Assembly: GCA_026986905.1 (NCBI GenBank)
Contig: JALSNQ010000009.1
Span: 1-41,501, forward strand
Length of the DNA stretch: 41,501 nt
Reading direction: 5' to 3'
Origin: Thermofilaceae archaeon
Lineage (GTDB): Archaea; Thermoproteota; Thermoprotei; Thermofilales; Thermofilaceae
Shown here piece after piece: positions 39,183-41,501 of this stretch (its first letter is position 1; each line of letters opens with the position of its first letter). The translations under genes and the position numbers were made by a program. The notes beneath the pieces are model-generated. The model was not told the DNA's origin. It saw only the letters and a program-made list of their open reading frames with translations, and ran no database searches.

Positions 39183-39854
39183 TTATTTTGGCGTGTGGAG
39201 GTTTTTGAGGCTGTTTCTAGATGGCTCGTGTGATGCGAATTTTAGGGCTTTTTTCCTCAGTTTATCGGCGATGGCTAGGTATTCTTTTTCAGTAATTTCA
39301 CGATATATAGGTTTGTTTTCTCTCTTTAGGCCGATTTTTACGTATATTTTTCCCTTCTTTTCGGCGAACATTGTACAATAATGGAGCATGCAGTTGACGG
39401 GTTTCATGTACCCTTTTTCCTGTAGGGCGCATTTGGCCGTCTCTGTATCTAGGAAGACGCATCTCCCAGCTGTGTCTGTGTCGAGGAGCAGGATCTCCAA
39501 TTCGCCGTAGCGTTTTGTGGGTATACTCTTTCGGGGTAGCTTGTCCCTGTAATAGGGTGGCAGTTCGTGGGGGAAGGCGAATGCGGCGCTGTTCCTGGCG
39601 CAGCAGAGTCCGCAGGCGGGGCATAGCATGCGGAAGCTTTCTTCTAGTACCGCTCCCTGTATCTCTTGGAAGGCCCAGGAGTGGCGGGGGCTCGGCGCTG
39701 GCATATTGAATACTGGGAGTAGCCTGCCGGTTCCCGGGTGGTAGTATACGCCTATAAAGTTTTTCTTGTAGTGGCTTGCGGCGTATAGTGCCGCGTAGGC
39801 TTGGGAGGCCTTTTTGGCGTTTTTTAGTGCGTATAGGTGAGGCATTTTTATCAT
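39183..39854 (-). CDS. YkgJ-like cysteine cluster protein
   Basis: The protein fits the YkgJ/UPF0153 family of putative zinc- or iron-binding proteins. CPACGLCC (C78, C81, C84, C85) gives the CxxCxxCC hallmark. The following C132-VFLD-x-C142 and C155-x4-C160 complete eight conserved-looking cysteines. The first 60 residues are lysine- and tyrosine-rich, and the last 60 are basic. Function in the family is not established. Its codons are more T-rich than those of upstream genes, in line with the AT-rich tRNA region. ATG 39845 is an alternative start. Confidence 0.82.
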   Translation of the reverse strand: MIKMPHLYALKNAKKASQAYAALYAASHYKKNFIGVYYHPGTGRLLPVFNMPAPSPRHSWAFQEIQGAVLEESFRMLCPACGLCCARNSAAFAFPHELPPYYRDKLPRKSIPTKRYGELEILLLDTDTAGRCVFLDTETAKCALQEKGYMKPVNCMLHYCTMFAEKKGKIYVKIGLKRENKPIYREITEKEYLAIADKLRKKALKFASHEPSRNSLKNLHTPK

Positions 39855-39956: not shown

Positions 39957-40217
39957 ATGCGTGTGGACCTTATTGTGGTCGCGCGTATACTTGACGCTCT
40001 CCACGAGGAGGGGCGGATGAAGAAAACTAGGCTGCAGCTATATAGTAGGCTAAATTATCCTGCTTTTAAGAGGTATCTTGAATGGCTTGTTGAAAGAGGC
40101 CTTGTGAGGGTTGCTAGGGAGAAGGACGGCGAGTACGTGGAGCTTACGGAGAGGGGTAGGAGTAGCTATGAGACGCTAGTCGTGTGGGTCAAGCGTTACG
40201 TTGGAGAAAAGCTCTAG
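39957..40217 (+). CDS. Winged-helix DNA-binding protein
   Basis: An 86-residue one-domain winged helix of the archaeal type: VARILDALHEEGRMKKTRLQLYSRLNYPAFKRYLEWLVERGLVRVAREKDGEYVELTERG, with the recognition helix at YPAFKRYLEWLVERG and the wing at REKDGEYVELT. No effector domain or cysteines are present. It diverges from the YkgJ-like gene over about 100 bases, so it may regulate that gene or itself. TTAATAT lies 30-40 bases before ATG 39957. Confidence 0.85.
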   Translation: MRVDLIVVARILDALHEEGRMKKTRLQLYSRLNYPAFKRYLEWLVERGLVRVAREKDGEYVELTERGRSSYETLVVWVKRYVGEKL

Positions 40218-40332: not shown

Positions 40333-40360
40333 ATTTATATATGGGTTGTGTGATTATCAC
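40333..40360 (+). promoter_or_regulatory. TATA box and palindromic operator of the ArsR-led operon
   Basis: ATTTATATAT is a strong TATA box about 30 bases before ATG 40372. Just downstream, GTGAT-T-ATCAC (40350-40360) is a perfect palindrome between the TATA box and the expected transcription start. That position suits a repressor that blocks polymerase loading, most simply the ArsR-like protein encoded next. Confidence 0.6.
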
Positions 40361-40371
40361 TTGATGGCTGA

Positions 40372-40677
40372 ATGGGAGCTAGAGATGAGCTCAAAAAGCT
40401 TGCAGAGGTGTTGCAGGTGCTCGCGAACCCCGTGAGGCTTGAGATATTGGCGCTGCTCTCCGTAAGGCCCCGCTACGCCTACGAGCTTTCAAAGAAGCTT
40501 AAACTCTCGTATCCCCTGGTACATCTCCACCTGAGGGTTCTAGAGAAGGCGGGGCTCGTGGAGAGTACCTACGTTCCAGGGCCCAGGACTAAGAGGGTGT
40601 ATAGGGTGAAGAACTTTGTAGTCGAGATATCGCCTGAGAGGATGCGTGAGCTGGGTGAAGGCCTTGAAGGCGAGTAG
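40372..40677 (+). CDS. ArsR-like winged-helix transcriptional regulator
   Basis: This 101-residue protein is an ArsR-type winged helix: LAEVLQVLANPVRLEILALLSVRPRYAYELSKKLKLSYPLVHLHLRVLEKAGLVE, then a wing (TYVPGPRTKRVYRVKNF). No cysteine or metal-site motif is present, so metal sensing is unlikely. The short C-terminal part may dimerise. It is the first gene of an operon with three small downstream genes, and a palindrome lies in its promoter, so autoregulation is probable. ATG 40364 just upstream is out of frame. Confidence 0.88.
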   Translation: MGARDELKKLAEVLQVLANPVRLEILALLSVRPRYAYELSKKLKLSYPLVHLHLRVLEKAGLVESTYVPGPRTKRVYRVKNFVVEISPERMRELGEGLEGE

Positions 40678-41014
40678 CGTTGTGATTGGGATCATAGGGA
40701 TCGCCGCAGGCCTCGCATTGATGGTGTATCTCCCATACCAGGTTATCGAGAAGGTCTCGGCGAAGCAGCTGGATCCCGTCTTTGGCGCAGTGGTCATTCT
40801 CTTGCTGCTATTAGCTGGCGGTGTTTTGAGCTTCTTCACGCTTGTCCTTCCTATACTGGAGTTTATGGGTGAGGAGGAGGGAGGCGAGGAGGAGGTGGAG
40901 GAGAAGCTTACAATGTACCGGGCGAGGCAGAGGGCTATGCTGGAGGAGCTTGATGAGATAGAGAGGACGCTGGAGGAGATACGGGACATATTGAAGAAGG
41001 GGATGGGGGAATGA
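40646..41014 (+). CDS. Two-TM membrane protein with acidic coiled-coil tail
   Basis: There are two hydrophobic helices (about residues 10-34 and 42-75) joined by a short loop, which puts both ends on one side, probably the cytoplasm. A very acidic stretch (EEEGGEEEVEEK) is followed by a heptad-patterned coiled coil (residues 88-120), ending EEIRDILKKGMGE. I know no family for it. The start GTG 40646 overlaps the regulator gene by 32 bases; GTG 40655 is an alternative. It overlaps the next gene by ATGA. It may be the membrane anchor of the downstream repeat protein. Confidence 0.78.
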   Translation: MSWVKALKASSVVIGIIGIAAGLALMVYLPYQVIEKVSAKQLDPVFGAVVILLLLLAGGVLSFFTLVLPILEFMGEEEGGEEEVEEKLTMYRARQRAMLEELDEIERTLEEIRDILKKGMGE

Positions 41015-41139
41015 GCGGGGAACTCAAGTACGCGGACTTGTCTGATGAAGAGGTTGAAGAGCTTATACTCAAGAGGCTCCGGGAAATAAAGGAGCTTCTC
41101 AGGGAGATAAGGGACATCTTCAAGGAGGTGGAGTCTTGA
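41011..41139 (+). CDS. 42-residue coiled-coil protein (missed by the ORF track)
   Basis: ATG 41011 overlaps the previous stop as ATGA, and the TGA 41137-41139 overlaps the next ATG. The product, beginning MSGELKYADLSDEEVEEL, is nearly all helix with a heptad pattern. Its end REIKELLREIRDIFK matches the tail of the two-TM protein at 10 of 17 positions, including EIRDI. Translation coupling on both sides and that similarity support a real gene. It may form a mixed coiled coil with the membrane protein. Confidence 0.75.
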   Translation: MSGELKYADLSDEEVEELILKRLREIKELLREIRDIFKEVES

Positions 41140-41501
41140 TGGCCGACAAGTTCGACAAGTACATGAAGGCTTTGAAGGGCGGGGCCTCCCCGGTAGAGGG
41201 GGATGAGGTCTCTATTGCCGGGGCCGGCGTAATCCAGGGAGGCACGTACAAGGTCGTGAAGGCCAGTGGCAGCCTGAAGGTGCAGGGGCCTATGAGGGCC
41301 CGGGAGTTTAGGGTGGCAGGCAGTGCAAGGGTTGAGGGAGACCTTACGGCCGACCTAGTCAAGGTGAGCGGGGCCATAAGGGTTGAGGGGTCGCTTAGGG
41401 GGGACACGGTGAAGATTTCTGGCTCCGCTAAGGTTTCCGGCGTGGTGGCCGGCGGCCTTGTCTCCGTGGCGGGTGGTTTGAAATCGGGCGGCGTTGAGGC
41501 C
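41139..41501 (+). CDS. Bactofilin-like repeat protein, 3' end outside the window
   Basis: The frame from ATG 41139 is open for all 121 codons to the window edge. After a short start (MADKFDKYMKALKGG) it consists of 17-residue repeats aligned in register: VKASGSLKVQGPMRARE, FRVAGSARVEGDLTADL, VKVSGAIRVEGSLRGDT, VKISGSAKVSGVVAGGL. The VxVSGSxxVEG pattern is that of the right-handed beta-helix of bactofilins, which polymerise into nucleotide-free filaments. No signal peptide or TM is visible, so membrane contact would need a partner. Its ATG overlaps the preceding stop as TGATG. Confidence 0.75.
   Translation, partial: MADKFDKYMKALKGGASPVEGDEVSIAGAGVIQGGTYKVVKASGSLKVQGPMRAREFRVAGSARVEGDLTADLVKVSGAIRVEGSLRGDTVKISGSAKVSGVVAGGLVSVAGGLKSGGVEA

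Follow-up and report, generated by a model that had tools for sequence, protein, structure and literature searches.

The right end of the DNA analysed here (the window: 41,501 nucleotides, one whole contig, C9, of an archaeal metagenome-assembled genome of 690 kb and 57% completeness) carries four forward-strand genes in the order ArsR-type winged-helix regulator, two-transmembrane (2-TM) protein, 42-aa microprotein and bactofilin (Table 1). Our data indicate that this operon is a conserved, uncharacterised archaeal membrane-cytoskeleton unit, in which the microprotein and the 2-TM protein share a C-terminal tail and probably assemble together, holding or regulating a filament beneath the cell membrane. 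The original prediction had singled out the shared tail of two adjacent genes, which we could uphold, but it understated the locus, since the pair is half of a conserved four-gene operon that also includes the ArsR-type regulator and the bactofilin. Within our partial coverage of the literature, we found no published description of the operon or of the microprotein.

Table 1. Features of the operon at the right end of the window, and transporter loci of relatives in which the cognate bactofilin is missing.
Feature	Position	Strand	Basis or remark
TATA-box-like sequence TTTATATAT	40334..40342	+	~30 nt before regulator ATG; read in the sequence
ArsR-type winged-helix regulator, 101 aa, operon gene 1	40372..40677	+	Pfam HTH_5, E=5.8e-13
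2-TM protein with C-terminal coiled-coil tail, 122 aa	40646..41014	+	start GTG 40646
Conserved 2-TM tail AMLEELDEIERTLEEIRDILK, region common to microprotein	40934..40996	+	residue conservation in family
Microprotein MSGELKYADLSDEEVEELILKRLREIKELLREIRDIFKEVES, 42 aa	41011..41139	+	49 homologous operons
Microprotein N-terminal motif LKYADLSDEEV	41023..41055	+	candidate docking motif; absent from 2-TM protein
Microprotein shared tail LILKRLREIKELLREIRDIFK	41062..41124	+	hhalign to 2-TM tail; EIRDLLK clasp like 4lku
GGAGGTG, Shine-Dalgarno-like, within microprotein gene	41124..41130	+	8 nt before bactofilin ATG 41139
Bactofilin (polymer-forming cytoskeletal protein), incomplete, contig ends	41139..41501	+	Pfam PF04519, solved-structure profile matches
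Bactofilin short N-terminal helix MADKFDKYMKAL	41139..41174	+	AF2 model of L010; Y9, L13 conserved at least 90%
MFS-transporter loci in f64	L120 1634-2917; L121 135-1439 (-); L122 1635-2921; L141 5195-6493 (reverse-complement orientation)		MFS transporter follows the triad

The four genes are closely packed. The regulator and 2-TM genes overlap by 32 nt, the 2-TM and microprotein genes overlap as ATGA, and the stop codon TGA of the microprotein shares one base with the ATG of the bactofilin. Together with the GGAGGTG site inside the microprotein gene, these overlaps point to a tightly coupled operon. The 2-TM gene has an alternative in-frame start, GTG 40655, that agrees with the start in relatives. 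The TATA-box-like sequence is a possible promoter of the operon, from which a near-leaderless transcript would arise. The gene order of the window is the usual one among homologous operons, the regulator is kept at the same place in 48 of 49, and the microprotein and 2-TM genes are adjacent with a spacing of about -20 to +18 nt where measured. Comparison of these neighbourhoods shows that a fixed operon surrounds the microprotein.

We examined whether the small ORF is conserved in relatives, on which the original prediction had hinged, and found it in 49 homologous operons from two classes of Thermoproteota, in each case beside a 2-TM gene; the operon thus extends beyond the class of the window. 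A profile of the microprotein detected the gene in 33 of 398 genomes, and the four named records recovered by a profile scan of contigs belong to Thermofilaceae and other Thermoprotei. Co-occurrence is nearly strict: among 101 relatives, 29 contain both the microprotein and the 2-TM gene, 70 contain neither, and each gene is found alone once (the 2-TM gene in G067; the microprotein in G080, where the 2-TM frame is broken). The microprotein is under purifying selection, with dN/dS values of 0.025-0.23 among nine pairs of relatives with finite dS; three further pairs are saturated at synonymous sites. Conservation, purifying selection and coupled starts led us to reject a spurious ORF, and comparative sequence analysis shows the 42-residue ORF to be a real conserved gene. 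The tree of the regulator tracks host families, requiring 14 label changes against a minimum possible 13, which indicates that the operon is old and mostly vertically inherited.

In G067 (L108 2408-3100 (-)), the regulator and the 2-TM protein form one ORF, the microprotein and the bactofilin are deleted, and EIRD of the tail has become DVGD. From these sequences, the locus seems to be decaying in the genus of G067 and its genus-mate G080. This apparently decayed locus holds the sole true one-ORF fusion of regulator and 2-TM protein that we observed. Open frames of 218 aa in f13 were considered as further fusions and rejected, since there, just as in the window, the regulator ORF occupies a different frame and overlaps that of the 2-TM protein.

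The tail of the window's 2-TM protein reads ...AMLEELDEIERTLEEIRDILKKGMGE. A gapless alignment of LDEIERTLEEIRDILKK with LREIKELLREIRDIFKE has 10 of 17 positions identical and hydrophobic positions in one 3-4 register; the identity and the matching heptad in the original prediction were exact upon realignment. Generic coiled coils can match by chance, and the window pair taken alone leaves room for this: shuffles that keep the hydrophobic/polar pattern reach 10 matches at p=0.0097, and the window's own 2-TM tail matches the microprotein profile weakly (E=0.49). The same register, however, recurs across the 49 operons, where the mean is 9.0 of 21 tail identities compared to 4.7 +/- 0.24 in pattern-keeping shuffles (maximum of 5.4 in 500). 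In the 35 operons that were aligned first, identity is 43% and drops to 25% once the alignment is shifted by one heptad, and hhalign of the 2-TM family against the microprotein family gives a probability of 96.3% and E=2e-9 over 27 columns. Furthermore, the microprotein profile also matches the neighbouring 2-TM tail in 15 of the 33 genomes that hold the gene (E<=0.01, genome-wide). On the partner-tail matches, the 49-operon shuffles and the hhalign result, we rejected a chance likeness, which is hardly credible; these comparisons show that the likeness of the tails goes beyond chance. Tails within an operon are slightly more alike than swapped tails (permutation p=4e-4, phylogeny not controlled), which we did not count.

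The tail is the best-conserved region of the 2-TM protein, while the TM segments drift. Residues L99, E100, E101, L102, D103, L109, I112, R113, D114, L116 and K117 are invariant or nearly so, and the tail terminates in LEEIRDILK. The AlphaFold2 (AF2) model of the 2-TM protein (mean pLDDT of 90.8) has helices at 2-38, 44-75 and 80-119, that is, two of TM length followed by a 40-residue helix, so that the tail is predicted to be helical. The consensus of the shared tail is LLxEIRDLLK, with core Leu at a and Ile/Met at d. We found that the microprotein profile aligns to the C-terminal bundle peptide of MscL (4lku, LLTEIRDLLKEQ; E=0.015), and other solved-structure profile matches were designed LaId multi-helix barrels and the COMP pentamer. 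Prior work has shown that the C-terminal helix of MscL forms a parallel five-helix bundle in which E124, R126 and D127 encircle the coiled coil with a belt of salt bridges (PMC5722894). These three residues correspond to E, R and D of the EIRD common to the 2-TM protein and the microprotein. Like MscL, the 2-TM protein ends a cytoplasmic helix in a LLxEIRDLLK clasp, a resemblance confined to this short motif. Unlike MscL, it is unmatched by the MscL families of Pfam (PF01741) and NCBIfam; 0 of 81 relatives exceeded the cut-off in a PF01741 search, and the operon was not listed. A search of the window's 2-TM protein matched no Pfam or NCBIfam family, and Foldseek of its model against the PDB returned nothing significant, with MscL absent from the matches. 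We therefore rejected the 2-TM protein as an MscL homologue. MscL is not known to have a separate soluble partner that bears the same clasp.

The residues that precede the clasp are acidic in the 2-TM tail (LEELDE) and basic in the microprotein (KRLREMK), with mean net charges over columns 3-10 of -3.6 and +2.0, respectively. Under the parallel, in-register assumption of our model calculation, the g-e' charge product is +1.71, a repulsion, for microprotein with microprotein, -0.53 for 2-TM with 2-TM, and, at its most attractive, -0.76 for 2-TM with microprotein. Together with the strict co-occurrence of the genes, these products favour a mixed bundle; against it, the pairing of 2-TM with 2-TM is also mildly favourable, which permits a 2-TM homo-bundle. 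Covariation between 2-TM column 4 and microprotein column 9 (mostly E-K, with Q/T-N in three) ranked 2nd or 7th of 441 pairs and reflects a single tree event, and we do not treat it as evidence.

The microprotein has two parts, with the shared tail in the C-terminal half and a conserved LKYxxxSDEEV motif of its own in the N-terminal half, where L5, Y7, D12 and E13 are invariant or nearly so. Cognate bactofilins start with a short FDxYExxL-type helix. This helix is absent from the non-cognate bactofilins compared, those of G455 (463 aa), G426 and G471 (441 aa each), G443 (462 aa), G081 (406 aa), G014 (224 aa) and G003 (383 aa). Operons with the cognate bactofilin retain L[K/R]Y in the microprotein (PKY in G008, LPY in G379), and the motif is altered in the four operons that lack it (ADY in G426, ADY in G471, PRY in G443, QRKY in G481). 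All four belong to one family (f64) and therefore amount to one or two events, and the change of LKY together with loss of the cognate bactofilin is at most suggestive of a link between motif and bactofilin. In f64, the triad of regulator, 2-TM protein and microprotein is followed by an MFS transporter, with another ORF between in G443; in G426, G471 and G443, the triad is closely preceded by a longer bactofilin (441-462 aa). Since the triad persists, tethering of the cognate bactofilin is not its sole function, and a regulatory reading stays viable.

The window's copy of the fourth gene is cut by the contig end and scores 24.7 bits against PF04519, below the cut-off of 27.9. Its intact orthologues L010, L021, L104 and L004 score 35.8-49.9 bits, above this cut-off, and the short form of f13 (L023) had no Pfam match. 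By sequence, the bactofilin profile matches the solved bactofilins BacA (2n3d) and that of Thermus (6ria). The AF2 model of L010 (pLDDT of 91.2) consists of an N-terminal helix (3-15) and a beta-solenoid; Foldseek of this model against the PDB had no hit with E<=0.001, and bactofilins were absent from its list. At the sequence level, the family and profile matches show that gene 4 of the operon encodes a bactofilin.

The best family match of the regulator is HTH_5 (48.9 bits; cut-off of 22). It falls below the cut-offs for the ArsR/SmtB metalloregulator subfamily NF033788 of NCBIfam (45.7 bits; cut-off of 55) and for PadR (21.5 bits; cut-off of 27), and on these matches it is ArsR-type in fold only. 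The nearest published idea is that of bacterial HAAS-PadR and Toastrack modules, whose winged-helix, helical membrane and beta-helix proteins are proposed to form a sub-membrane signalling complex (PMC11237479). The operon likewise combines, in one neighbourhood, a winged-helix regulator with a helical membrane protein and a predicted beta-helix protein. Unlike those modules, its regulator matches ArsR-type rather than PadR-type families best, it has no HAAS domain (DUF1700/DUF1048/DUF1129 without match in the 2-TM protein or microprotein), a bactofilin replaces Toastrack, and a conserved 40-residue microprotein is added. Toastrack DUF4097 scored 18.6 bits in L010, below 22.9, and the bactofilin match was better by more than 25 bits.

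We hypothesize that the microprotein serves the neighbouring 2-TM protein as a dedicated partner. The LLxEIRDLLK clasps and oppositely charged flanks would most likely join in a single parallel coiled-coil bundle on the cytoplasmic side of the membrane; we infer the hetero-bundle, its order and its orientation. The LKYxxxSDEEV motif of the microprotein would most likely dock the N-terminal helix of the bactofilin encoded by the next gene, and docking would tether bactofilin filaments to the membrane. The ArsR-type regulator probably controls the operon. Taken as a whole, a mixed bundle of microprotein and 2-TM tail with the microprotein N-terminus docked on bactofilin is a tentative reading, to which we give slightly less than an even chance. 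The original prediction had suggested that one protein may be a soluble copy of the other's tail, acting as competitor, adaptor or filament cross-linker. The shared tail bears out part of this suggestion, but as a description of the microprotein it is incomplete: the upstream half of the tail is oppositely charged and the N-terminal motif is its own. The opposite charge makes the microprotein resemble a complementary partner and not a decoy. Among the proposed roles, adaptor fits best, given co-encoding with a membrane protein, a position nearly always directly before the bactofilin, and the separate N-terminal motif. A competitor, in the manner of a dominant-negative microprotein that caps or breaks up the homo-bundle of 2-TM tails, would draw on the same clasp in a soluble, membrane-free form, and complementary charges would favour hetero over homo pairing. 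It is nevertheless improbable, since genes so tightly coupled in translation within one operon suggest matched amounts, and the conserved motif at the N-terminus points to more than a cap.

Two other readings compete with the mixed, bactofilin-docked bundle. Both tails might rely, like MscL, on one kind of bundle clasp and yet form two separate homo-oligomers that never mix; the clasp also occurs in MscL, unrelated by family search, so that sharing it needs no contact. Against this reading stand the strict co-occurrence of the two genes, their adjacency, and the conserved repulsive R4-K/R9 arrangement that a parallel microprotein homo-oligomer would contain; we regard it as unlikely. Somewhat better placed, though still doubtful, is a sensor-regulator module for membrane stress, similar to HAAS-PadR-Toastrack, in which the 2-TM protein would sense the membrane, its bundle with the microprotein would sequester or release the ArsR-type regulator, and the bactofilin would be a target gene or a platform. 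The f64 triads without cognate bactofilin, with an MFS transporter instead, are consistent with such a module, as are the single ORF of regulator and 2-TM protein in G067 and the analogue published for bacteria (PMC11237479), with its winged helix, membrane protein of helical structure and beta-helix. Yet the shared tail can be explained without such a module, the locus in G067 looks decayed, and three of the f64 genomes retain another bactofilin just upstream.

The widest reading, which we consider quite unlikely in its full form, is of an undescribed archaeal envelope module: a 40-residue microprotein and the 2-TM protein with which it shares an MscL-type clasp would build a mixed membrane-anchored bundle that tethers bactofilin filaments and passes the state of the membrane to the ArsR-type regulator. 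The membrane targeting and regulation of archaeal bactofilins are poorly known. The operon provides a defined unit of four genes, present in two classes of Thermoproteota, and its microprotein is short enough for synthesis and testing. It would be a clear example of a microprotein with its operon partner's own assembly motif, and it shows the clasp of the MscL bundle in use outside MscL. The Helicobacter pylori bactofilin CcmA has the membrane partners Csd5 and Csd7 (PMC9448923), and archaeal halofilins represent the bactofilin family in cell shape (PMC12186497). The operon resembles the former in that a bactofilin-family protein, here modelled as a beta-solenoid, adjoins or contacts a membrane protein, and the latter in that the protein is an archaeal member of the family. 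Unlike Csd5 (SH3) and Csd7, which are described as connecting the complex with peptidoglycan enzymes (PMC9448923), the membrane protein of the operon is a small 2-TM protein. In the CcmA and halofilin literature (PMC9448923, PMC12186497), we found no description of a microprotein partner that shares the tail of the membrane protein.

Several features were observed around the operon. A second small winged-helix gene lies just upstream (39957-40217 (+); Pfam HTH_45, E=9.5e-11), and similar-looking small winged-helix ORFs adjoin non-cognate bactofilins in G014 (L144) and G003 (L145); archaeal bactofilins may often be neighbours of small winged-helix genes. Also upstream, on the opposite strand, is a CxxCxxCC putative metal-chelating protein (39183-39854 (-); PF03692, just above the cut-off), and in L031 (222-743) the region upstream of the operon encodes a protein whose cysteine motif is similar. 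Thermofilum-like relatives carry a gene for a band-7/SPFH-like protein near the operon (L013 20-793, L015 34-804, L021 226-786, coordinates in the stored orientation). Elsewhere in the genome of the window, in L002, an ORF for an 89-aa single-TM coiled-coil protein overlaps the gene of another ArsR-type regulator (1348-1617, 1614-1910), a pair that resembles the operon's own combination of a membrane coiled coil with a regulator.
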